A DNA stretch of 33,694 nucleotides from a virus. Location: IMG/VR virus record IMGVR_UViG_3300050015_000298, positions 1-33,694 of that record; one strand, given 5' to 3'. The notes beneath the pieces are model-generated. The model was not told the DNA's origin. It searched no databases and worked only from the letters and a program-made list of their open reading frames with translations. Every line of letters starts with the position of its first letter. The stretch's first letter is position 1. Made by a program: the position numbers and the translations under genes. Positions 2,534 to 33,694 of this stretch are shown here, piece by piece.

Positions 2534-3556
2534 ATGAAAAGAGTTTTACTTACAGGAGCTTCCGGTGCGATTGGCGTGCACGTGATGGCTCATTTAATGG
2601 AGTGGACTGACTGGAGCATTGTGGCTTTAGACAGTTTTGACATAGACCACAAGGGATATTTCGACAGAATTACCAGGATCTGCAAAAATCACTCTAATTG
2701 GGTTCCAAAAATAAAGATATTTACCCATGATTTAAACGCACCAATAACCGACAGGGAGATAGAGCAGATTGGCCATATAGATTATATCCTTAATTTAGCT
2801 TCTAGGTCTGATGTACAAAATTCAATAGTAGACCCGGCGCCATTTGTCAAAAATAACGTCAACCTGATGCTGAATATTTTGGACTATGCCGTTAAAGCCA
2901 AGCCGGAAGTCTTCTTGCACTTCTCAACAGACGAAGTCTATGGCCCGGCGCCTAAAGACTCCCCCGGGCATCCAGAGTGGGATGTCATACTCCCCTCTAA
3001 CCCGTACAGCGCCTCTAAAGCCTGTCAGGAGGCTCTAGCGATAGCGTGGTGGAGGTCTTATGGGCTGCCGTTGATAATTACGAACACCATGAATAACTTT
3101 GGAGAAATGCAGGCGCCCTCTAAATTCCCAGCTTTCATTCAGCAGTGTATAGAGCACGACGCGTTTATCCCAGTCCATGCCTCAAAAAGCGGTGAAATAG
3201 GTTCCAGATATTATATCCATTCCAGAAACACGGCCGATGCTATCCTATTTATTTTGAAAAATATAAAACCAACTGTACACGGGCTCGGGGAAATAGATAG
3301 GCCGACAAGGTTAAATATCGTTGGCGATAAACAGATTGATAATATGGAGCTGGTACATATTATTGCCGGACTAATGGGTAAAGAAGCTAAGCCTGGGTTA
3401 GTTTATTTCCATGACGGCAACCCCGGGCACGATTTGCATTACGGATTAGACGGAACAAAATTAAAAGAGCTGGGGTGGAAATCCCCGGTCTCGTTCGAAG
3501 ATAGTATGAAGCATACAATTAATTGGCAGAGGCAAAACCCCGAATGGATGAGCTAG
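2534..3556 (+). CDS. NAD-dependent sugar-nucleotide dehydratase/epimerase (RmlB-like extended SDR)
   Basis: A 340-residue extended short-chain dehydrogenase/reductase. The Rossmann NAD-binding motif TGASGAIG is at residues 7-14. The active-site strand STDEVYG (T132, D133, E134) is the signature seen in dTDP-glucose 4,6-dehydratases, and the catalytic pair Y158/K162 sits in PYSASK. Length and motif order match the full-length family, so the enzyme should be active. It would oxidise C4 of an NDP-hexose and lead to 4-keto-6-deoxy sugars; an epimerase or decarboxylase role on a related sugar is possible. It has a strong GGAGG SD within a hairpin. A sugar enzyme is unusual among replication genes and may supply a donor for the two-domain glycosyltransferase at 18431-20146 (inference). 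Confidence 0.85.
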   Translation: MKRVLLTGASGAIGVHVMAHLMEWTDWSIVALDSFDIDHKGYFDRITRICKNHSNWVPKIKIFTHDLNAPITDREIEQIGHIDYILNLASRSDVQNSIVDPAPFVKNNVNLMLNILDYAVKAKPEVFLHFSTDEVYGPAPKDSPGHPEWDVILPSNPYSASKACQEALAIAWWRSYGLPLIITNTMNNFGEMQAPSKFPAFIQQCIEHDAFIPVHASKSGEIGSRYYIHSRNTADAILFILKNIKPTVHGLGEIDRPTRLNIVGDKQIDNMELVHIIAGLMGKEAKPGLVYFHDGNPGHDLHYGLDGTKLKELGWKSPVSFEDSMKHTINWQRQNPEWMS

Positions 3557-3559
3557 CTA

Positions 3560-3588
3560 TTGACAGCGACACCGACATAGAATATAAT
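3560..3588 (+). promoter_or_regulatory. Consensus sigma70 promoter
   Basis: TTGACA at 3560-3565, a spacer of exactly 17 bases, and TATAAT at 3583-3588: a perfect match to the housekeeping-sigma consensus. It begins 4 bases after the dehydratase stop and lies in an 85-base gap. The expected transcript start is near 3595 and would drive the operon from 3642 to 6511. Confidence 0.75.
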
Positions 3589-4966: not shown

Positions 4967-5488
4967 ATGAAAAATGTAAAAAAAGTATCAAAAGAACTAA
5001 GTGCCAAGTTAGTATCTAAGCCCAAGCCAACAGTTACTATGATTTCGTATAGTATGAAGATGGTAATTCCAACTGGACAATATGCGAATATCCAACCAGA
5101 GATAGTCGTTAAAGCTTCTAACCCTGAAGAGGCCCACGATTATATTGCTAAGCACATGGATAAAATGTGGAAGGAGTATTTTATGGTCAACGAAAGAGTT
5201 AACCAAGAGGCACCAAAAGTGGTTCAACCCATACTTACTCCCGAGGTTATGGCTCCAACTGGTCCGACCGGACCGGTCGCAGAAGCTTCCCCAACCAGTA
5301 ATGTGGCTGTAATTAAAGCCACACAAGCTATTGAGTCCTGCATGAGTCTTGAGGCTTTGGATTTAATTAAAAATCAGATTGAACTATCAGTCAAGTTGGA
5401 TAAAACAGAAAAGCCAAAATTGCGTGACATGGTTACAAATAGGTTTAATGAGTTAAATGCAGATGCCTTTGTCAAAAGAAACTCCTAG
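4967..5488 (+). CDS. Hypothetical recombination-operon protein, 173 aa
   Basis: A 173-residue protein with three parts. A beta-rich N-terminal domain (residues 20-70, ISYSMKMVIPTGQYANIQPE followed by EEAHDYIAKHMDKMWKEYF) comes first. A Pro/Gly/Thr-rich linker follows (MAPTGPTGPVAEASPTS), and the C-terminal part is helical (CMSLEALDLIKNQIELSVK). The N-terminal domain looks like a conserved fold, but I do not recognise a named family. Its end overlaps the nuclease gene by 32 bases, so the two are probably made together and may act together on DNA. The GPTGP linker resembles the late collagen-like genes but is far too short to form a triple helix. Confidence 0.7.
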   Translation: MKNVKKVSKELSAKLVSKPKPTVTMISYSMKMVIPTGQYANIQPEIVVKASNPEEAHDYIAKHMDKMWKEYFMVNERVNQEAPKVVQPILTPEVMAPTGPTGPVAEASPTSNVAVIKATQAIESCMSLEALDLIKNQIELSVKLDKTEKPKLRDMVTNRFNELNADAFVKRNS

Positions 5489-6104
5489 GTTAATCCTCCC
5501 GCGCACATATTTGTCTTGGTCCCAAATGAACTGCTTTTTAACGAGCCCGGCTCGTTTTAGGAAAGAGTATTTTGAGAATGGGCCAAGACTCACTTCCAAG
5601 TATTTGTCTTTTGGAAAAGACGTCCATAAATTAATTGAGGACAACAAGCATAAAGACATTCTCCCCGATTTGGAAGTTTACGACGTGAGAGAGTTAGAAA
5701 TAAAAGTTAATGTCAGGGAAGTGCCAGTTTTAGCTTATATTGATAGCTACGACCCTGATAAGAACGTATTCCGGGACACAAAGACCGGCATAGCACCGTG
5801 GGACAAGGTAAGAGTTATCAAGCTTGGGCAGTTGCCCTTCTACGCCGTCGCGCTAAAGTATAAATACGGTAAAGCCCCAGAGTATTGCCATTTAGATTGG
5901 CTGCAATCCAAAGAAGGGAAGAAAGAAGATGCGGTTGTAGACGACTTTTGGAGGACTAATGAGACTGAATTAAACCTGACCGGGTATATGAAATCATTCC
6001 AAAGGGATTTTGACAAGAGGGAAATTGAAAAAATGGAGGACCTCATTGTAAAAACAGCATGGGGAATCAGCGAGGCATATCAATTATTTTTAAAAGAAAT
6101 CTAA
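5457..6104 (+). CDS. PD-(D/E)XK nuclease, Cas4/RecB-like exonuclease
   Basis: A 215-residue nuclease of the PDDEXK_1 (Cas4/RecB) type. It opens with the usual LSWSQMNCFLTSPARFRKEY, which marks the SxxxxxxxCP-like start of RecB nuclease domains, but no iron-sulfur cysteine set is visible. FGKDVHKLIE gives the helical histidine (H57). YIDSYD gives D96 and FRDTKTG gives D107 and K109, so the triad is D-DxK. GQLPFYAVAL (Q125) is the QxxxY helix. It would degrade or trim DNA ends, probably with the partner protein encoded just upstream. The gene starts inside the previous gene; MPLSKETP, two codons on, is an equally possible start. Confidence 0.8.
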   Translation: MQMPLSKETPRLILPRTYLSWSQMNCFLTSPARFRKEYFENGPRLTSKYLSFGKDVHKLIEDNKHKDILPDLEVYDVRELEIKVNVREVPVLAYIDSYDPDKNVFRDTKTGIAPWDKVRVIKLGQLPFYAVALKYKYGKAPEYCHLDWLQSKEGKKEDAVVDDFWRTNETELNLTGYMKSFQRDFDKREIEKMEDLIVKTAWGISEAYQLFLKEI

Positions 6105-6105
6105 C

Positions 6106-6333
6106 ATGAATCCAGAAGAAATGCAGAAAAAAACTGCTGAAAAAATACAAGCAATAAGCACCCTGTGCAAACAACTGGAGGTTACAATTACTGCCGAGCA
6201 AATGGTGACCGAAAACGGTATTATAAAAACTGTTGTTTTTTACCACGACGAAGAAAAATATGAAGTCGACAAAGAAGAAATTAAAGAACCAAAAAAAAAT
6301 GATTCTCCCAATTTACGGAAAAAAAACGATTAA
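6106..6333 (+). CDS. Hypothetical charged protein, 75 aa
   Basis: A 75-residue protein with an N-terminal helix (QKKTAEKIQAISTLCKQLEV), a beta hairpin (TENGIIKTVVFYHDEEKYEV) and a disordered Lys/Glu/Asn tail. It starts one base after the nuclease stop (TAACATG). Its tail crosses an A9 run (6291-6299) and an A8 run, and overlaps the next gene by 35 bases. No family is recognised. Confidence 0.65.
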   Translation: MNPEEMQKKTAEKIQAISTLCKQLEVTITAEQMVTENGIIKTVVFYHDEEKYEVDKEEIKEPKKNDSPNLRKKND

Positions 6334-6511
6334 GCTGGCTTTCGAATTCGGCCTAGTCTTAGCTGAGGTGGCTAAAGAAAAGAAAATTGAGATGACCCCA
6401 GAGCTGTCCCTGAGAGCTGAGAGCGTGTTTATAAAAGAAATAAATGAGCAGGGTTTAAAGAGCGTAGCTTGCCAATTTGTCCCTCTCATACTTGCGTGTT
6501 TTGAGGTATAG
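6299..6511 (+). CDS. Hypothetical helical protein, 70 aa; last gene of the left arm
   Basis: The preferred start is ATG 6299, giving MILPIYGKKTIKLAFEFGLV. An ATG at 6233 would add 22 low-complexity residues from the out-of-frame overlap with the previous gene. The body is helical (LAEVAKEKKIEMTPELSLRA, then VFIKEINEQGLKSVACQFVP). The start codon comes directly from the end of an A9 run. A +1 slip there would fuse it to the previous frame, so the two could be one gene if a base was miscalled. No family is recognised. Confidence 0.6.
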   Translation: MILPIYGKKTIKLAFEFGLVLAEVAKEKKIEMTPELSLRAESVFIKEINEQGLKSVACQFVPLILACFEV

Positions 6512-6537
6512 ATTTATAATAAAGTAGAATAAGGCTC

Positions 6538-6619
6538 TCGATGTTTCGCTACGGTGTTTGGGCTACTCGTCCTAGATGAGTAAGAACTAACATCGATGAC
6601 TCGAACACCATGAGTTCTT
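6538..6619 (+). ncRNA. Candidate structured RNA with crossing helices (pseudoknot)
   Basis: Helix A pairs TCGATGTT (6538-6545) with AACATCGA (6589-6596). Helix B pairs GGTGTTTG (6553-6560) with CGAACACC (6602-6609), with one G-U. Helix C is a local hairpin, TACTCGT (6564-6570) with ATGAGTA (6576-6582). Helix D pairs AGAACT (6583-6588) with AGTTCT (6613-6618). The order is A-B-D-A'-B'-D', so A, B and D cross each other and may be alternatives rather than all form together. Wobble pairs are G-U on the + strand and would be A-C on the - strand, which favours a + strand RNA. It lies 26 bases after the last left-arm gene and matches no RNA family I recognise. Confidence 0.45.
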
Positions 6620-6627
6620 TGTGGAAA

Positions 6628-6695
6628 AAAAAACACCTTACCGTTACCTGATGCAATATTTTTTAATAATACATCTGCGAACATAGGTGTTTTTT
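6628..6695. terminator. Bidirectional terminator-like inverted repeat between convergent operons
   Basis: AAAAAACACCT at 6628-6638 is complementary to AGGTGTTTTTT at 6685-6695. The A and T runs give a U-tract on either strand. The position, between the last + strand gene (ends 6511) and the end of the - strand operon (6699), is where a two-way terminator is expected. The 46-base loop is long and holds a weak inner GATG/CATC stem, so efficiency is uncertain. The AACACC/AGGTGTT arms could also compete with helix B of the upstream RNA. Confidence 0.55.
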
Positions 6696-6698
6696 GAT

Positions 6699-9600
6699 TT
6701 AGATTGGATTGTATCTGCTGGACGAAGATCCAGAGGATTTCGGAGTGGATTTGTTATAATAAGATTGTCCTTGGTCAGTGTAAGATTTACCGAATAAGCC
6801 GGCTCTGACATAATTCATTGGGGTACTAGGTATGCTATACTGATAGGCACCCTGAGGGTGTGCCTTAGTCGGCGAACCCCTCGAAGCCCCTTGGGATACG
6901 GCTTTAAGACCTTCATAGGTTCTTTTTATTTGAGCGCCGCCCGGAACTACATTGGTGAATAAAGAGTTGCCAACTGTCCGCAGTCTAGAGGAGACACTCG
7001 GGACATTCCCGTATTGGTCTTTAGCTCCGGTAATTGCATTGAATGTGTCTATACCAAATTGGATGGCCGGTGGCATGCCAAATCTCAAAGGCATCCATGA
7101 GTCGGTCCATTTCATTCCGAAGGCTGAACCTATGTATGAGAATAGAAGCATTGACGAAACAAGATACCTTACCAGCTTCCACCAATTTCTCTGGCCAATC
7201 ATTTCTATTATAAATTCACTCTGCTTCAACCCAAAACTTTGGAACTGAGCTGCCATCTTTGCGATATCGCTGTTCAATCCGACCGGCGTGTCCAGTGGAC
7301 CGAATAAGAACTGGGTTTTACCGGCAACAAATTTTCCATAGTGGATGGCGTCCTCCATAGTTGGAGTGTAGCCAGCCGGCATCGGTTTTCCGAAAGCTTC
7401 CCGATATTCTTTTGGAGTCGTTCTGCCATTCAGGAATTTTGCTTTAGCTCCATAGTATGCCGCCCCCCTGTTTACCATTTCAGAGGCTGTCATGTTCAGG
7501 AATAACACATTGTCGAACTTCTCAGCCATCTTTTTTACAGCGCTGTAAGTCCTATCCTCAATGAACGGGGCGATCAAAGCGCCGTTCTCTTTTAACTCTT
7601 TCCCGCCATATCTGACTAAATCCAAATATCCCTTCATGGTATAGCGCGTCCCTAACTCGGCGTAGGTGTTGACTCCCTGAGTTAAGTTTTTGGCAAACGA
7701 GGTCATAGAACCTCCGATCTTCGCCCTAGAAATCATCATTCTTACGAATCTGGTGATAGCTGCGGTCGGTCTGGCCCCGAATAAATATCCTACTCTTTCT
7801 TTAATGTGGTTATCGATCAGGGTATCTAGCTCTGTGGGCCTCAAGTTAACGGCCCCAAGGTATCTGTTGAGATAATTTAGTTGGCTAGTATCAGTCATCT
7901 TCGACGTGGCTGCCTTGAGTTCAGCAAGGGCCGGGTCCATGTTAACCTTCCTAGTAGCCCTCTTAACATAGGCATCGAGCGCCTTCCAGGTGTTTTTTAG
8001 GTATCCTTCAGCTCCTTGTCTCTGTAGCAAGAAAGGGTTGTAAACGCTCCCGGGAATTTTTTTGTTGATTAGGAACGAAATTTCTTCTGGGATTTCTCCA
8101 CCCTTACCAAGTGGGAAAATGTGGGTTATGTATTCAGAAATCCTAGCATCGGGTTTCATGCCTAGTCTATCCGCCCATTCGCTTAGCCAAGTCTTTATTT
8201 CTCCGGCCACCTTGGTTTCCTCTGGAGTCAAAGAAATTTTCTCTCCATCTAACGCGCGGAAAATTCTCTCATTGCTCGCCGCAGGCACTTGTTTTGACCA
8301 TGCAGTTATTTTGTCAATATTTTTAGGTAACTCTTTAACGTAACCTTCATACCCAGACAACAACCTCTCGTATTGAGGTCGGATTTTCATTCTCTCAAAT
8401 ATCTTCCAAGGAGTTCTTAGGTAGTCTAGGAACCTCACCCTTTCCTCCATGGGCGTTCGTTCAGACCCCATCATAACTTTTTCCAGTGGGTCAATAGGTA
8501 TGTCCGGCGGAAGATTTGCCTTGGCTGTTTCTAATATTTTTGCGGCTAAATCAATCGGCGCGCCCTCGGTAGGGAGAGGAGTTGATTTAGAAAATGTAGG
8601 CGTAACTATTTTGGCTGGACGATTAGTCCCGGAGGTTGCAAGCGTTGGGCTTTGTGGCTTCACAAAAATACCGTTAGCGTTGGGTTCAGCCGGTCTGGGA
8701 GTCTTCTCCAGTAGTGCTTGTAAGTCTTTTTTGAAGCTTGGGGGACTGCTGAAGTCAGAAAGAGGAGTTGTCTTGTCTCCTTTTAATATTTTCTCAAAAA
8801 GCGGCCTCATGGCCATAACTGCGGCTTCTTCCTTTCTAAATACTAGCCTCTTGAGTGCATCGAAAAAGGTCACCCCTAACTTCCTGAGTAATGGCTCCAT
8901 CTGTAGCGCCGGTAATTTATTCTCAAATACATAATTAGCGAAACTCTCTGCAAAAAATTCTTGTGGATTTTTGGCATAGTAAGAGGCACTGCCATTTTTT
9001 CCGCTCAATCCTCCTTCAAAAAGGTTTATCCTTCCAGTTCTCTTCATTTGGGAGTAAACCGTATCCACTATTTGCCTCTCAGAGTTTGTTAAAATTAGAT
9101 AATACCCCGCGTGGCCGTATTCGTGAGCGAATACTTTCGCTGGCTCAGCAGTAGCGTAATTATTCCCTGTTCCCACTAACCCTTTACGTAAATTGAGTTT
9201 GTTTGTATACGGAATCGCCATCCCCATGCTGGTTTGCGCAGAAAATCTCCCCGAGGTTCTCATCCTGGCATTTTCTCCAATATTTAACAGGCTTAGGTAT
9301 TTGTCGTTGGTTCCTTCGAAAAGGGTCTTTAAGATAGTCGCATCTTCTGGGCGGATTGTATTGTTCTTGACCATTGTATCCAGTCTTTTTGTGAGACCTT
9401 GATACCCCGGCCCTTGAGTTGCGGTTGACTCGCTTGCCAGTGGCTTAGTAGTCGTTTTTCCTAAGTCTCTAACTGCAATATTGTGGTCGTTGATTGCGCT
9501 AGGAATATTGTCTGTGAAGGTTACCCCATCTATCCTAGGCAACCTAGAAACTATGCTCTGTATGTCGGGATAACTGACACCGTTACTAGTTAGTTTTTTT

Positions 9601-11309
9601 TCTATAGCAGCAATCGTTGTCTTCCCCTCCTCCATGCCATCTACCACATTATATGGAACTTTTGTATTCTCTGGCGTGACAGGGATGCCTGGGATAGTCG
9701 AACTACCATCAACAGTCATTATCGTTTGTTTCCCAGTTGGAGAAACAGCTCCAGGAGTCGTAATCGCTGGGGGAGTTGCTGGAGTATTAGACGGGACATT
9801 TATGGGGTCGCTAGCAGACCCGGGCACCTCATTATTGATTATCGGCTTATTAGCATTGAAAATACTTTGTGCCACGCCGGGCTCTGCCGCACTCGCAGCT
9901 TGAGAAATGGGGCCAGAGGTAGCTGGTGGGTTTGTTTCAACCGGTTGCGATTGGGCTATATCGGTTGCTGGAGCAGCGCCTGTGACTTCCCCGGGTATCG
10001 CTCCCTCTGGTATCCCGGCTGACTTCTCCCAGCCAGATAAAAACGTAACTAATTTATTATATAAAGAAGGTTCCGATTTGAACATTTCGACCTGCACTTT
10101 CGTCATGTCTGGGACAGTTTTGGCTTCTACCCCTTTGTATCCATCTGGGACAACGTCTAGAACTGCTTTGCCGGAAGTGCTCGTTGTGACTTTCAATAAG
10201 ATACTTGGGTCATCTGGATTTTTGAAATAGACTTCTTTCGGTTGAGAGAACACCTGTTCAGGCGTAGTCCCATCCGGAAGCATGCTTTTGGCCTGCTCGG
10301 CAACCTTTGTGCCTTCTACTGTGTTGCCCATTTTGTACCAAACTGGTCTAAAAAATGAAGTTACTGGATATGCTAGCGTGTCAAAAGCTAAAAAAGTTTT
10401 ACCTGCACTCAGTGCGTTTTGAACCCTTTCATTTATATTACTAGCCTTCGAAATGAGCCCTCCAACGAATCCGGTTCCATAGGCCTTAGCGGCGTTCACC
10501 GGGTTGAATATATTCCTTGTGATCACGCTCTTTTGCATTGCATCGGTGGCTACCTTAACTGCCGCTTCTCCGCCCGGGATTGCTTCGGTTACTGCCCCTG
10601 CTACCGGTCCTAAAAACTTTCCAAGAGTCATCCAGCCCACTATGCTTCCTGCCAGTTCCATGCCTTTCTGTGACAACGTAACTGCGGGGGCTTTGTTGTC
10701 ATACCCCACGTTTCCGGCGTATCCAAAACTCATGCCTCTTTGGAAGTATTCGTCCGGGGCGATTTTGGCGGCCTCAATTTTTTGGTTTAAAATGTCAGCC
10801 TCTTGTTGTTTTTGTGTTTGCCATGCCTGCGCCTCAGGGGTTGGTATTTCTGGCTTGGCAGTGGAGATGGTTAAGCTCTTGTCTGGGACGAATGGTTTAA
10901 CTGACCCAATTTTTGATAAATCTGTCCTGTTCCCATACTTATCAGTGTAAATATTGGGTTCAGTTACCGGCTGGACGTTGGTTTTAACGTCTCCTAAGAC
11001 CGTAGAAATTGTTTTTACTGGGTATGGGCTGGTTGGCTGGGCCTTCTTAGTATCAGCCGGGCTCATCATTGTTTTTTCTTTAGGAGTGTATCCCGTGAAA
11101 TAATCCTCAATCCCCGATTTCAAGCTATCGAACCAATTCATTTTAGGCTCAGCAGCGGGCGTAGGATAGCTTTTTTGTTGGTCCGCCGTAGGCTGGTATG
11201 GTTTCGTCGCAGCAAAAATATCTGGTACAGCTGAAACCGTAGATATGGGGTTATATCTATTGCTTCCTACCGTGGCAATTGGATTATACTTGGTTGAAGT
11301 TGTCGCCAT
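6699..11309 (-). CDS. Giant ejection (internal virion) protein with HExxH metallopeptidase domain, 1536 aa
   Basis: The last and largest late gene, in the place where short-tailed phages encode their big DNA-ejection proteins. Residues 1-190 are Pro/Thr/Lys-rich and look disordered. A Gly/Ala-rich, membrane-friendly region follows (about 200-330), then a long Pro/Thr/Ala linker (about 450-560). A zinc-peptidase domain is next: VFAHEYGHAGYY gives H729, E730 and H733, and NPQEFFAESFANYV offers E784 or E788 as the third ligand, as in lethal-factor-like gluzincins. Residues 960-1460 are helical, with a hydrophobic stretch (LVRYLVSSMLLFSYIGSAFG) near the C-terminus. The motif K/RYNPI occurs at residues 7-11 and 18-22 and again as the last five residues. 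The peptidase may cut virion or host proteins during entry (inference). Confidence 0.75.
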   Translation of the reverse strand: MATTSTKYNPIATVGSNRYNPISTVSAVPDIFAATKPYQPTADQQKSYPTPAAEPKMNWFDSLKSGIEDYFTGYTPKEKTMMSPADTKKAQPTSPYPVKTISTVLGDVKTNVQPVTEPNIYTDKYGNRTDLSKIGSVKPFVPDKSLTISTAKPEIPTPEAQAWQTQKQQEADILNQKIEAAKIAPDEYFQRGMSFGYAGNVGYDNKAPAVTLSQKGMELAGSIVGWMTLGKFLGPVAGAVTEAIPGGEAAVKVATDAMQKSVITRNIFNPVNAAKAYGTGFVGGLISKASNINERVQNALSAGKTFLAFDTLAYPVTSFFRPVWYKMGNTVEGTKVAEQAKSMLPDGTTPEQVFSQPKEVYFKNPDDPSILLKVTTSTSGKAVLDVVPDGYKGVEAKTVPDMTKVQVEMFKSEPSLYNKLVTFLSGWEKSAGIPEGAIPGEVTGAAPATDIAQSQPVETNPPATSGPISQAASAAEPGVAQSIFNANKPIINNEVPGSASDPINVPSNTPATPPAITTPGAVSPTGKQTIMTVDGSSTIPGIPVTPENTKVPYNVVDGMEEGKTTIAAIEKKLTSNGVSYPDIQSIVSRLPRIDGVTFTDNIPSAINDHNIAVRDLGKTTTKPLASESTATQGPGYQGLTKRLDTMVKNNTIRPEDATILKTLFEGTNDKYLSLLNIGENARMRTSGRFSAQTSMGMAIPYTNKLNLRKGLVGTGNNYATAEPAKVFAHEYGHAGYYLILTNSERQIVDTVYSQMKRTGRINLFEGGLSGKNGSASYYAKNPQEFFAESFANYVFENKLPALQMEPLLRKLGVTFFDALKRLVFRKEEAAVMAMRPLFEKILKGDKTTPLSDFSSPPSFKKDLQALLEKTPRPAEPNANGIFVKPQSPTLATSGTNRPAKIVTPTFSKSTPLPTEGAPIDLAAKILETAKANLPPDIPIDPLEKVMMGSERTPMEERVRFLDYLRTPWKIFERMKIRPQYERLLSGYEGYVKELPKNIDKITAWSKQVPAASNERIFRALDGEKISLTPEETKVAGEIKTWLSEWADRLGMKPDARISEYITHIFPLGKGGEIPEEISFLINKKIPGSVYNPFLLQRQGAEGYLKNTWKALDAYVKRATRKVNMDPALAELKAATSKMTDTSQLNYLNRYLGAVNLRPTELDTLIDNHIKERVGYLFGARPTAAITRFVRMMISRAKIGGSMTSFAKNLTQGVNTYAELGTRYTMKGYLDLVRYGGKELKENGALIAPFIEDRTYSAVKKMAEKFDNVLFLNMTASEMVNRGAAYYGAKAKFLNGRTTPKEYREAFGKPMPAGYTPTMEDAIHYGKFVAGKTQFLFGPLDTPVGLNSDIAKMAAQFQSFGLKQSEFIIEMIGQRNWWKLVRYLVSSMLLFSYIGSAFGMKWTDSWMPLRFGMPPAIQFGIDTFNAITGAKDQYGNVPSVSSRLRTVGNSLFTNVVPGGAQIKRTYEGLKAVSQGASRGSPTKAHPQGAYQYSIPSTPMNYVRAGLFGKSYTDQGQSYYNKSTPKSSGSSSSRYNPI

Positions 11310-16190: not shown

Positions 16191-16526
16191 TTATGAGTGT
16201 CCTGTATAGCCAGTGTAGCCAGTCGGGCCAGTGTAGCCAGTTGGTCCAGTTACTGATGGGCCGGTGTATCCTGTATACCCTGTCACTCCAATAGGGCCAG
16301 TCGGGCCAGAACCAATATCTGACCACGATGGTACCGCAACCGAACCAGAGTTTCTATATACGACTCCGGTATCTAGTCTTAGTAACTCGCATCCTAGAGA
16401 GAACAGCCCGGCGTACGCTGAGCCGGATGGGAGTGCTCCGTCGGACGTACCTCTCGAGATATATCCGGTGGTGGGACTTTGCTCTTGAATATTTACAAGA
16501 GGAATTAAGGGATTTGAATGTGCCAT
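16191..16526 (-). CDS. Short collagen-like virion protein, 111 aa
   Basis: A 111-residue protein. The N-terminal 75 residues form a small domain ending in a Trp-containing segment (SGSVAVPSWSDIGSG). The C-terminal third is Gly-X-Y triplets, mostly Gly-X-Thr ([16 protein letters not shown] and [16 protein letters not shown]), broken once by a PSVT interruption. Collagen-like tails trimerise and extend from virions. It lacks a C-terminal cap domain, so it may be a short spike or a peptide that co-trimerises with the longer collagen-like proteins. It lies between the HNH endonuclease and tail-hub genes. Confidence 0.75.
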   Translation of the reverse strand: MAHSNPLIPLVNIQEQSPTTGYISRGTSDGALPSGSAYAGLFSLGCELLRLDTGVVYRNSGSVAVPSWSDIGSGPTGPIGVTGYTGYTGPSVTGPTGYTGPTGYTGYTGHS

Positions 16527-18400: not shown

Positions 18401-18430
18401 ATACTTAATTATAATATTTAATAATAGAAA

Positions 18431-20146
18431 TTACAATTCTGCTAATTTTTTCTTCAAAAGTTCCCTATCTTGGTCAACGTGAGACCAACCTGTCTGATAG
18501 GTCTTGTCATATACGGCACCTTTGGAGAAATGATAATGGTTTACCACGGCTTTTTCGGCTCTAACAAAAATACCCAACTTATCCATCTTAGCTGAAAGCA
18601 AATTGTCACACCCTGCGTGCCAGAACTCAGTATCAAAAACCTCTCCAATTTTAGCTATAATATCCTTTCTTATCATAAAATGCTCATTTCTGTTCCCGCC
18701 ATCGGGCAATAGTACTCCGGTGTTGAAGGCGACAAAGCCTTCTGCGCCGACTTTCAAAGCTTCGGTCAAGCTATTTATTGTAAACTCTGTGTCGTCGGAG
18801 GCGAACACTATCCACTCTCCGGTAGACCCTGTCACTCCGTTTTTTACTAGTTGGGGGACCCCGATTCGAGTCTCTCGGCTATCTTTTTTAATTAAAACCT
18901 CTATCTTGTCTTGAGGATAATTAAGGTTTTTTATTGAAGTTAAAAGTCTCTCCATCCCTTCCGGGCGTTCCCCTAAAGTTGGAATAACGAATGAAATTTT
19001 TGGTAAATAGAACTGACCATCCTCAATATATTTTTGGTTAGTTGGACAGAAGGCTATGGCTTTTTTCCAGTGCTCTTCGCTTTTTTGTTTATTGCCTTCC
19101 CACCAATAAGCCACATATAAAAACTCGTGAGGCACGTGCTCGTAGTACGGCTGATGATTCGAATAGAATGGGAGTTGAGTGACCGTAAGCGCGGCCTCAG
19201 AATAGGCAATCGTCTGCTTATACATTGCCTTAAAAAAGTAATATTCGGCTAGTCTCATCATTGGTTCTCGCCGAGCCTCTTTCTCGAAAGATTTAACCCA
19301 CCACTCAAAAGCCCTCCCAATGTCTCCTAAATATTTATAACAATCACCGACAAAAAGCATCGACTGAGAAGCCTCAGTCGGCCATCGGTTCATTGAAATA
19401 TGATTCTCGAGCTCCTTAATAGCTGATCTAAAGCGCCCGGTGTACATCATCTCTCTAGCAAAATAGTGGCTATTTCTGTCATTGTCTGGGTTGTTGTAGC
19501 AATCGACGGCAAGTCCTTTTAAGTAACCAGTCCTATTAGTCTTTTCATTTTGATAATGTTCCAAAAGGATTGTGGACTCATCGAGATAGACTTTCTTCGC
19601 TTCTCCGACCAGAACCTCGTGGATTATACCTTTCCATTTTAACTTTTTTCTATTGTAAAACTTACAGTGCATAAACTTCACGACAGGGTGACCTAGGTCG
19701 TCATGAGAGAAAACAAACTGGTACTCTAGTTGCTCAGCGCCGTCAGCGATAACTTTTTGGACTTTATCCAAATCTAATTTAGTATATATTTCATCACAAT
19801 CAGGGGTAGCTATGACGTCGTTTGAAGAGAAGTCAGCTATATAATTTCTAGCTGAGGCGAAATCAAAAAGAGACTCACCGTCTTTTACTACCGGGGCGTC
19901 TCCATCAACTACGAATTTTTTATTAATTTTTTCGGCTAGTTCTTGGTCTATATTTATCCTGAACTTGTCTCCGACCTCGATGACCTTACATCCTAGGTTG
20001 GTAGCGACTTCAGGGGTTTTATCTGTAGACCCAGTGTCTAGAACCAAAATTTCCCCACCTCTAGATTGGAATTCTTTGAGAGAGCCAATCATCCTTGGCA
20101 AGGTAGCCTCTTCGTTTCTTGCAATGAGGACTACGGAAAAATTCAT
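18431..20146 (-). CDS. Two-domain GT2 glycosyltransferase with helical-repeat linker, 571 aa
   Basis: Residues 1-220 are a family 2 (GT-A) glycosyltransferase: VVLIARNEEATLP, then LDTGSTDKT (D37, D42) and FDFASARNYI before TPDCDEIY (D116, D118, E119, the metal-binding DxD-like site). Residues 225-370 are helical repeats of TPR type (RNSHYFAREMMYTGRFRSAI and similar). Residues 375-571 are a second GT2 domain (ISFVIPTLGERPEGMERLL, then SDDTEF and a late WHAGCDNLL). GT2 enzymes joined to TPR repeats are known to modify peptides and proteins. It would transfer sugars from nucleotide donors in the cytoplasm before assembly. It lies two small genes downstream of the large collagen-like gene, whose Gly-X-Thr triplets are plausible targets (inference). 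Confidence 0.85.
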   Translation of the reverse strand: MNFSVVLIARNEEATLPRMIGSLKEFQSRGGEILVLDTGSTDKTPEVATNLGCKVIEVGDKFRINIDQELAEKINKKFVVDGDAPVVKDGESLFDFASARNYIADFSSNDVIATPDCDEIYTKLDLDKVQKVIADGAEQLEYQFVFSHDDLGHPVVKFMHCKFYNRKKLKWKGIIHEVLVGEAKKVYLDESTILLEHYQNEKTNRTGYLKGLAVDCYNNPDNDRNSHYFAREMMYTGRFRSAIKELENHISMNRWPTEASQSMLFVGDCYKYLGDIGRAFEWWVKSFEKEARREPMMRLAEYYFFKAMYKQTIAYSEAALTVTQLPFYSNHQPYYEHVPHEFLYVAYWWEGNKQKSEEHWKKAIAFCPTNQKYIEDGQFYLPKISFVIPTLGERPEGMERLLTSIKNLNYPQDKIEVLIKKDSRETRIGVPQLVKNGVTGSTGEWIVFASDDTEFTINSLTEALKVGAEGFVAFNTGVLLPDGGNRNEHFMIRKDIIAKIGEVFDTEFWHAGCDNLLSAKMDKLGIFVRAEKAVVNHYHFSKGAVYDKTYQTGWSHVDQDRELLKKKLAEL

Positions 20147-20602: not shown

Positions 20603-21859
20603 TTAAAATGCTACTGCTCTTACAGCGATTGCTATTGAAAGTGTCCCGGGTGTTCCTCCAGTTTGGAAGGCTGTAATTGTAATATTAGTTGCGTCTTTAG
20701 AAACATTCAGAGCATAGTAGTTAGAACTATTCGGACCTAATAATAATGCTCCTACGCCTGGTCCGCTTGAACCGTCACCGAGTCGTCCACTCTGTGCATT
20801 ATTGAAAGCAATCGATTCTGAAGAATCACCAAAACAAAATATATGTACGTCAACTAATGTCGGAGTCTTCCCCAATCCGTGAGCGATAACAATGGGGGAC
20901 GAAAAGCTAGTAGTTGCTCCAGTTGTGGAAGAATAAACTGTGGGAGCAGTGGCCGCCCCAGTATATCCGGTCGCTCCTGTGGCACCGATAGACCCGGTAT
21001 ACCCCGTCGCTCCAATCGGACCAGTGTAACCAGTGACCCCGATAGTACCGGTGTATCCTGTGAAACCAGTGTATCCTGTCGGACCAGTCGGACCGGTTGA
21101 ACCCTGCGGACCGGTATATCCGGTTGGGCCTGTCGGACCTAACGGCCCAGTATATCCAGTAAAATTGCCCGGCCCGGTATAGCCTGTCGGACCAGTGGCT
21201 CCAATCGGCCCGGTGTATCCGGTCGCTCCAGTGGAAGCCACAGCTCCCTGTGGGCCAGTATAACCGGTGGCTCCTGTCGGTCCTAACGGTCCAGTATATC
21301 CAGTAAAGTTGCCTGCTCCGGTATATCCAGTCGGTCCAGTCGCTCCGGTGGGTCCTAATGGCCCAGTATAGCCGGTGAAATTGCCTGCCCCGGTATAACC
21401 TGTAAATCCGGTCGCGCCGATGGGGCCGGTATACCCAGTTGGGCCAGTTGCTCCCTGCGGGCCGGTGTAACCAGTGGCTCCAGTCGGACCAATAGGCCCG
21501 GTATAACCAGTTGGGCCAGTTGACCCGGTAGAAGATGCTCCTCCCGACGCTCCAGTATATCCGGTATAACCAGTTGGACCGGTGTAACCTGTAAAGTTTC
21601 CGGGACCAGTAAAGCCAGTGTACCCGGTTGGACCAGTGGCTCCTGTCGGTCCTAACGGTCCAGTTGGACCCGTTGGAATATTTATTTTTGAATCAACCCA
21701 CGCAGAGGTATCGGTATCCCAGACCCAAATAGAGTCTGTTGTACCGACTATTGCAAAATAGCCGGCGGCTCCAGTCGGGTACGCCGCAGCCAATGCCGCG
21801 GGGGTTGCGAAAAACCCTAAGTCGTTTGCATCTTTTAATCTATTAGCTAAGTATCCCAT
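20603..21859 (-). CDS. Large collagen-like tail or head fibre protein, 418 aa
   Basis: Residues 1-60 are a folded N-terminal domain ([18 protein letters not shown], then [20 protein letters not shown]) that probably docks to the virion. Residues 62-301 are about 80 Gly-X-Y triplets dominated by GPT, GYT and GAT. The triplets are broken by four N-F-T interruptions (N88, N160, N184, N232) and by S109 and A208. Residues 302-418 are a beta-rich C-terminal domain ([20 protein letters not shown]), which could start trimer folding and bind the receptor. The interruptions are spaced 72, 24 and 48 residues apart, all multiples of 24. The first six residues match the 166-aa collagen-like protein at 25373-25873. 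Confidence 0.85.
20957..21676 (-). repeat. Collagen-coding tandem repeats with a 72-bp super-repeat
   Basis: Nine-base Gly-X-Y coding units form a long repetitive block. On top of them lies a larger unit beginning at each GNFTGYTGP copy. Copies start at residues 87, 159, 183 and 231, so spacings are multiples of 24 codons (72 bp). This points to growth and shrinkage by unequal recombination or slippage. Confidence 0.75.
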
Positions 21860-24596: not shown

Positions 24597-25373
24597 TTAA
24601 CCTACAAAGCCTATTGCCGTGCTACTTGTTGCTACGGGCACAACTATATAATTACTGTTAATAGTGAAATTGCCCTTAGCATTTAATAATGTGTTAGAGA
24701 TACTGCCGATTTCTGCCCCACCAAAAACATTCGTACCATTTGGCAACGAACCTGTCTGGAAGTAACCATATAAATTCACTACTCCGTCGAAACCACCAAG
24801 TGCCCCACCAAAAATCTGTGCAAATATGTTAGCTGAAGCTCCTGAAACCGTTCCATTTGGAACAAAGTTTTGTAACTGGCCATAGACAGTAAGAACCCCG
24901 GTGAAATCTCCAAAACTGAATGATGGCGACGAGCCGCTCTCTACTGCTATACTATGGAAATTACCAGACAGTATCTGGTGCGAATTCCCACTCTGAACGT
25001 CTGTGAGCCCTGCAACCGAAGTATAATTCAAATATCCTCCTCCGCCGACATTACCATTTAGAGTCAAAGTACCTCCGATCACGCCGAGGGTTAAGCCAAA
25101 ATTGCTTGGCGAGCCACCAGCATAATTTACGTTGCCAGTGACATTAATCCCATTAACTCCAATATCGGTATATCCATCCCAACCACTATCACTGATGTCC
25201 AGGGAAGCTAAGGTCAACGCTCCTGTCGGGGCAATAGCGCATAGGTTCGTATTTGGAATAACGGTCGAGGTCATTATGACATCGTCGCCGTTTACCGGCA
25301 CCGTCAGTGTATCCCAGCTTAACGCATCGTTCCAATCGTTTGAATTGGCCCCTGTCCACGTTTTTGTTGGCAT
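24597..25373 (-). CDS. Beta-repeat virion surface protein, 258 aa
   Basis: A 258-residue, Gly/Asn/Ser/Thr-rich protein with few charges. The N-terminus (KTWTGANSNDWNDALSWD) is the W-TG..S.DW....NW pattern that begins many beta-helix or autotransporter-like surface proteins. The repeat body (LTLASLDISDSGWDGYTDIG, then INVTGNVNYAGG) fits a parallel beta-helix. It overlaps the stop of the collagen-like protein as TAATG, so the two are coupled and may form one appendage. Confidence 0.65.
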   Translation of the reverse strand: MPTKTWTGANSNDWNDALSWDTLTVPVNGDDVIMTSTVIPNTNLCAIAPTGALTLASLDISDSGWDGYTDIGVNGINVTGNVNYAGGSPSNFGLTLGVIGGTLTLNGNVGGGGYLNYTSVAGLTDVQSGNSHQILSGNFHSIAVESGSSPSFSFGDFTGVLTVYGQLQNFVPNGTVSGASANIFAQIFGGALGGFDGVVNLYGYFQTGSLPNGTNVFGGAEIGSISNTLLNAKGNFTINSNYIVVPVATSSTAIGFVG

Positions 25374-25873
25374 TATAAGGTGTAACTAATAGTAATCGTG
25401 AGTTTTGTCACTGTTCCAGACATTGCTGAGGAAACATAATGAAGTTCATTTCCAGCAGATAAGGTCCCTCCTGTAACGGTAAGTGTTGTTCTCGTAGTTG
25501 AAACAACCGTAGCGGCACATACATCCGAACAACTGGCTCCATTGGAGTCGCATTTGGTAAGCTTTATAGTAATCGATGTTCCGTCTTCGGCTCTCGCGCT
25601 TATCGCAGATATTGTAGCTCCAGCTGGAAATGATGTCACTAAAAAATCATCAGACGTTGTCGGATTACTTACTGGTATTGATAAGATTAGAGTGGGATTT
25701 GGTCCCGTCGGTCCTGTGGCTCCTGTTGGACCAGATGAGCCGGACGGTCCGGAAGCTCCCGCGGGTCCAGTGTATCCAGTAGGCCCTGTAAATCCTGTTG
25801 GACCGGTAGCTCCGGTGTATCCTGTTGACCCTCCACCTCCGGTACTCCCTGGCTTATTAGCTAAATATCCCAT
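25373..25873 (-). CDS. Collagen-like fibre protein, 166 aa
   Basis: A 166-residue protein in three parts: a short N-terminal docking motif ([15 protein letters not shown]), about 14 Gly-X-Y triplets ([16 protein letters not shown] and following), and a C-terminal beta-sandwich-like domain ([20 protein letters not shown]) that includes a [12 protein letters not shown] cluster. The motif MGYLAN is shared with the 418-aa collagen-like protein, suggesting the same attachment site. The C-terminal domain may start trimer formation or bind the cell. Confidence 0.8.
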
Positions 25874-29381: not shown

Positions 29382-29410
29382 ATTATATAATGTCCTAAAA
29401 AAACTTGCAA
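29382..29410 (-). promoter_or_regulatory. Putative sigma70-type promoter of the scaffold/coat genes
   Basis: On the - strand TTGCAA (+ strand 29405-29410) is followed after 17 bases by TATAAT (29382-29387). The -35 matches 4 of 6 and the -10 matches 6 of 6. It lies in the gap upstream of the 43-bp leader and would start a transcript near 29375. Confidence 0.5.
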
Positions 29411-33640: not shown

Positions 33641-33670
33641 ATTATATACACTAATTATCGTTCTTTTGAA
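33641..33670 (-). promoter_or_regulatory. Possible promoter of the late operon
   Basis: On the - strand a perfect -10 TATAAT (+ strand 33641-33646) is preceded by TTCAAA (33665-33670) with an 18-base spacer. The -35 matches 4 of 6. It stands in the A/T-rich gap ahead of the portal gene, where a CACTAA/TTAGTG inverted repeat (33649-33654 and 33684-33689) overlaps it and could be an operator. A/T richness makes chance matches likely. Confidence 0.35.
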
Positions 33671-33694
33671 AAAAAAATGCAAGTTAGTGATTAA

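Follow-up and report, generated by a model that had tools for sequence, protein, structure and literature searches.

The convergent junction of this phage genome most plausibly holds a separate small-RNA gene (~6527-6697, plus strand): among relatives the promoter goes with the RNA and the fold is nested, and the crossing helices proposed in a preliminary description of the sequence are not conserved; on balance, we lean towards this being a non-coding RNA gene of its own in a group of uncultivated phages. The window, by which we mean the whole stretch of DNA analysed, is a 33.7-kb virus record. No relative of it was found among named phages, either by nucleotide search with the junction or by tblastn with the 1536-aa protein encoded next to it. 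Promoter and terminator together would delimit a unit of ~170 nt, and the junction is laid out as follows.

6299..6511, plus strand: 70-aa ORF (MILPIYGKKT...LACFEV) that closes the rightward block, with homologues in 19 or more related phages
6492..6497, plus strand: TTGCGT as the -35 element, within the 3' end of the 70-aa ORF
6515..6520, plus strand: -10 element TATAAT, an exact match in non-coding sequence directly after the stop codon
6527..6697, plus strand: proposed small-RNA transcription unit, ~170 nt, its start placed ~7 nt after the -10 element and its end at the terminator T-run
6529..6622, plus strand: domain 1, irregular nested hairpin, from fold and pair probabilities, with a geometry like that of homologues
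6529-6534/6617-6622, plus strand: P1, outer stem of domain 1, followed by a 2x2 loop CU/UU
6537-6539/6612-6614 and 6541-6543/6609-6611, plus strand: P1b of domain 1
6545-6548/6602-6605, plus strand: core TTCG/CGAA of domain 1
6552-6558/6589-6595, plus strand: P2 of domain 1
6565-6571/6575-6581, plus strand: P3 of domain 1
6628..6697, both directions: domain 2, bidirectional intrinsic terminator hairpin AAAAAACACCT...AGGTGTTTTTT
6643-6645/6680-6682 and 6650-6653/6672-6675: extended inner hairpin of the terminator
6699..11309, minus strand: 1536-aa gene with a HEYGH zinc-peptidase-like motif, last of the leftward block, converging on the junction

Neither the 70-aa ORF nor the 1536-aa late protein has a match in Pfam or PHROG, and the window holds no tRNA or tmRNA. 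Elsewhere in the window, an NAD-dependent sugar epimerase/dehydratase gene (2534-3556, plus strand) lies within the block of replication genes, and collagen-like GPTGYTG repeats occur in three virion-region ORFs on the minus strand (16191-16526, 20603-21859 and 25373-25873).

A nested hairpin at the junctions of related phages

The 1536-aa protein, helicase, exonuclease and 70-aa ORF of the window were used as queries to gather related contigs, and the small ORF served to mark the junction. In 17 distinct junctions, the window's included, a hairpin-forming insert of 90-155 nt precedes the terminator; 10 others (L002, L006, L015, L018, L023, L025, L041, L056, L077 and L088) have a plain short terminator only, and four more distant loci carry a different sequence at this position. 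For all but one of these 17 inserts, the plus-strand fold beats the mean of the insert's own shuffles, and most of them form a single irregular, unbranched hairpin. From the outside inwards this hairpin usually consists of an outer stem, a 2x2 loop (often UU/UU), a stem with a mismatch, a small asymmetric loop, a TCG/CGA core, an internal loop and a variable inner stem.

Both sides have changed in 9 of 18 nested pairs in a seven-member alignment that was not fitted to the model, and in 12 of 18 in an 11-member alignment, which leans towards the model because it was fitted to it; MAFFT alignments containing the window were left out of these counts because they misplaced it. Among the 11 members the covariation score is 0.546 against 0.266 for shuffled controls (0/500 as high), and sliding the partner lowers it to 0.23 or less. 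Nested pairs are also stronger with a phage's own partner strand than with that of another phage (z -5.0 and -2.6; 11 homologues), and RNAalifold, unaided, returns the same outer helices. A covariance model built from seven members, with L003, L013 and L026 left out, recovers these three with E values of 1e-5 to 6e-4 and at the junction only. Judged from these alignments, the nested structure in homologues is maintained by compensatory changes in the best-aligned members.

Covariance model R2 finds a single copy per record, and scans of viral contigs with core-motif patterns returned known members and chance matches only, the latter including L030 and L031, which lie inside coding genes, and L093, L095 and L096, which do not match the model. 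Strict patterns run against IMG/VR gave matches confined to this phage group, apart from chance ones. Scanning 84,980 bacterial and archaeal genomes for promoter plus motif gave no match, and neither did a helicase search of genome contigs. Sequence comparison supports the promoter, the strand, the fixed locus with its single copy and, in homologues, the nested fold; transcription itself and independence from the upstream gene are what we infer.

A promoter that accompanies the RNA

Of the 17 RNA-bearing junctions, 12 have, over the stop codon of the upstream gene, TTGC followed after 19 nt by a TATAAT-like element, compared with none of the 10 RNA-less ones; a -10 element agreeing in 5/6 or more positions lies near the stop in 16/17 and 2/10, respectively. 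The window has the exact form (6492-6520), with 17 nt between TTGCGT and TATAAT. Allowing up to one mismatch, the same form occurs at 12 sites in the window against 3.6 expected, some of them just upstream of late genes, as at 29382-29410 and 33654-33682 on the minus strand. TTGC/TTGA - 19 nt - TATAAT sites upstream of genes also include 3560-3588 (plus strand) and 18408-18436 (minus strand). This suggests that TTGC/TTGA - 19 nt - TATAAT is a promoter class of the window phage.

In the scenario we propose, this sigma70-type promoter, which shares its upstream part with the 3' end of the 70-aa ORF, would start a plus-strand transcript at ~6527, two bases before the outer stem. The transcript would then fold as a long, irregular nested hairpin and end at the extended terminator hairpin, which would also stop the opposing late operon. 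One may instead assign the hairpin to the 3' UTR of the rightward operon, as a stabiliser or processing site beside an incidental promoter-like sequence, as its position just past the last rightward gene and its end at that operon's terminator would allow. However, a promoter at fixed distance accompanies the RNA and is missing where the RNA is missing, and the -10 element follows the stop directly, outside coding sequence, so we hold the 3'-UTR reading to be unlikely.

The terminator

The terminator arms, 6628-6638 and 6685-6695, are flanked by an A-run and a T-run that suit both directions. A terminator hairpin lies at the same place in relatives; it is short in RNA-less phages, and its loop is extended only where the RNA is present, the whole extended hairpin measuring 51-71 nt as cut out. 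The long loop of RNA-bearing phages seems to contain another structured domain of weak conservation, such as TTAGCAAAT.. in L010-L012 and CGATCGCA.. in L071, L072 and L075.

The preliminary description had noted that words of its helix B recur in the terminator and had suggested that the terminator could compete with the RNA. The repeat is real, a 7-nt match between 6553-6559 and 6631-6637. The words AACACC/GGTGTT are also found in the terminators of RNA-less relatives (L002 and L023), and by this comparison they belong to the terminator, whether the RNA is present or not. The suggested competition found no comparative support: over 17 members, the hairpin domain matches its own terminator arm over 4.9 nt and a swapped one over 5.2 nt. 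An antiterminator pairing of the terminator arm with helix B, being no better than the swapped control, was rejected.

The crossing helices of the window

The same description had read the segment as three helices in the order A-B-hairpin-D-A'-B'-D', which must cross, with wobble pairs appearing as G-U on the plus strand alone. Both the order and the wobble assignment are correct, and every helix was found in its place.

6538..6619, plus strand: crossing helices A, B and D, exact in the window and not conserved
6538-6545/6589-6596, plus strand: helix A, TCGATGTT with AACATCGA, 8 Watson-Crick pairs
6553-6562/6600-6609, plus strand: helix B, GGTGTTTG..CGAACACC, extending to 10 pairs, two of them G-U
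6582-6588/6613-6619, plus strand: helix D, AAGAACT with AGTTCTT, 7 pairs
6564-6571/6575-6582, plus strand: local hairpin

Whether such an arrangement is unlikely to arise by chance, as had been claimed, depends on the comparison. Scored as three mutually crossing helices within 85 nt, the segment has a stacking energy of -40.4, which none of 1500 dinucleotide shuffles reached, so against local shuffles the claim stands. Across the genome it does not: when 1562 windows on both strands were scanned, about four other places equalled or beat this value, and one such find is accordingly expected across 33.7 kb. The crossing alone, found by reading 33.7 kb, is not beyond chance. Equally strong sets occur inside coding sequence at 2992, 21310, 31415 and 3852 (minus strand), and are probably chance themselves.

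In homologous junctions the pairings are neither kept nor compensated, which is the outcome that the preliminary description had itself named as refuting its crossing topology. In the other 16 junction RNAs we found no notable triple crossing (at least 25/200 shuffles as good, against 0/200 for the window), and across 11 homologues the equivalents of A, B and D show no excess of own over swapped complementarity (z -1.3, +0.3 and -1.1). A triple-crossing pseudoknot of the plus strand in this phage, a switch between such a knot and the nested hairpin, or a dimer joined in trans by A, B and D can appeal to helices that are long and nearly all Watson-Crick, to the shuffle result, and to the window pairings X1-Y1 and X2-Y2, which are thermodynamically stronger than the nested ones (-10.3/-12.1 against -7.1/-8.4). 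Against these readings stand the lack of the crossing in the 16 homologous RNAs, the lack of covariation, the equal scores elsewhere in the genome, and the 3-nt link 6597-6599, which would be very short to cross an 8-bp helix. Moreover, the crossing complementarity of the window exceeds the nested because segments CGATGTTTCG and CGGTGTTTGG, which form the 5' strands of A and B, nearly repeat each other, so that both crossings come from one coincidence. We therefore find the pseudoknot, switch or dimer improbable. The greater strength of the crossing complementarity makes a lineage-specific alternative fold or dimer possible, if unsupported; that the window lineage acquired crossing helices on top of the others, through which the RNA switches between the ancestral nested rod and a triple-crossing fold or dimer, seems to us a long shot. 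The knotted shape occurs in the window phage only and is probably not the actual fold of the RNA. What holds of the preliminary description is thus a structured plus-strand RNA of no known family with a bidirectional terminator after it, without the crossing topology or the competition; it saw the helices and overlooked the promoter and the nested fold.

Membership of the window copy

In a nested-only ensemble the window RNA has pair probabilities of 0.92 for P1, 0.94 for P2 and 0.99 for P3, and of at most 0.002 for A, B and D; the folding programs used cannot score pseudoknots, and nested and crossing states are here not on equal terms. A short ATG ORF within the hairpin (6541 onward, ~12 codons) was disregarded after inspection by eye, no equivalent being apparent in homologues.

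The window copy is, like the others, an insert at the convergent junction that follows the stop of the 70-aa ORF and precedes the terminator; it has the exact promoter form at the upstream stop codon, and folds as an unbranched nested hairpin with a 2x2 loop, a mismatch or bulge, a TCG/CGA core and an inner stem. Its loop geometry, by tree distance, is matched by 2/300 shuffles, and its structure-alignment score against the family by 0/160 plain shuffles and by 4/240 single-hairpin shuffles, the strictest null (p ~0.02). The conserved letters of the family are ATCG ... ACGAC..YTGGT; the window has TTCG ... TCGAACAC (TTCG..TCGAAC), which partly matches ATCG..ACGAC, and the group L068-L075 also departs from it. 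Five other junction RNAs, L068, L071, L072, L073 and L075, are not significantly detected by the covariance models.

It may be argued that the window hairpin is unrelated to the family of its relatives and merely sits at the same place, as covariance models R1 and R2 both miss it and its sequence alignment to the family varies with program settings. The locus, promoter spacing, size and terminator are nevertheless the same, the loop geometry is similar, and in the helicase tree a branch with support 93/96 sets the RNA-bearing phages together with the window, all of which leads us to consider an unrelated hairpin quite unlikely. In the exonuclease tree, by contrast, the window sits on a long branch and groups with RNA-less phages; this conflict between trees (5457-6104 against 82-930 of the window) may reflect a mosaic genome or a long-branch artefact. 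We take the window copy to be a divergent member of the family, and call this only probable because the covariance model of core members misses it.

Comparison with known RNAs

At the gathering threshold of Rfam 15 no family matched the window or 11 relatives, and matches below it were at chance level. The junction RNA would be a new, previously undescribed family of stand-alone phage sRNA, which is itself a known kind. The phi29 pRNA, ~170 nt long, is likewise a phage-encoded structured RNA kept in a phage group by structure, not sequence. It has a three-way junction and interlocking loops, whereas the junction RNA is one unbranched hairpin plus a terminator and is absent from 10 relatives. 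A packaging RNA of the phi29 type was rejected, members being mostly single unbranched hairpins with no Rfam match.

Motifs of the kind described by Weinberg and colleagues from phages and metagenomes (manA, wcaG, c4) were also comparative-genomics finds, their function unknown at discovery (PMC2864571). Those are listed families, several of them 5' UTR elements, whereas the junction RNA lies at an operon 3' end, has its own promoter and matches nothing in Rfam. Lambda OOP RNA (77 nt) resembles it in being small, with its own promoter and a terminator between opposing transcription units; OOP is an antisense RNA to cII (PMC12197685), whereas the junction RNA is longer, forms a conserved irregular rod and overlaps no opposite-strand gene.

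Pairing is the mode of action of most characterised phage sRNAs, such as OOP, sar and c4 (reviewed in PMC12197685), and an ordinary antisense-type regulator acting on phage or host mRNAs is thus a natural thought. Yet a conserved single-stranded seed is missing from the junction RNA, conservation lies within the stem, and no gene on the opposite strand is overlapped; we give base pairing a rather small chance. The invariant letters fall in internal-loop elements, namely the AUCG/CGAC core and the UU/UU and G.G mismatches, and the terminal loops are free in length and sequence across members; this suggests binding by a protein and not pairing through a seed. The small RNA, transcribed independently as we propose, would then act in trans as a stable protein-binding RNA, perhaps a decoy or a scaffold.

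The case also illustrates that a striking pseudoknot found by hand can be a lineage accident atop a real nested RNA. A clade that has lost the RNA but retains the genes around it offers a natural comparison. A structured RNA gene with compensatory changes over a diverse set of uncultivated phages, its own promoter, a single copy and a fixed place probably matters to infection.
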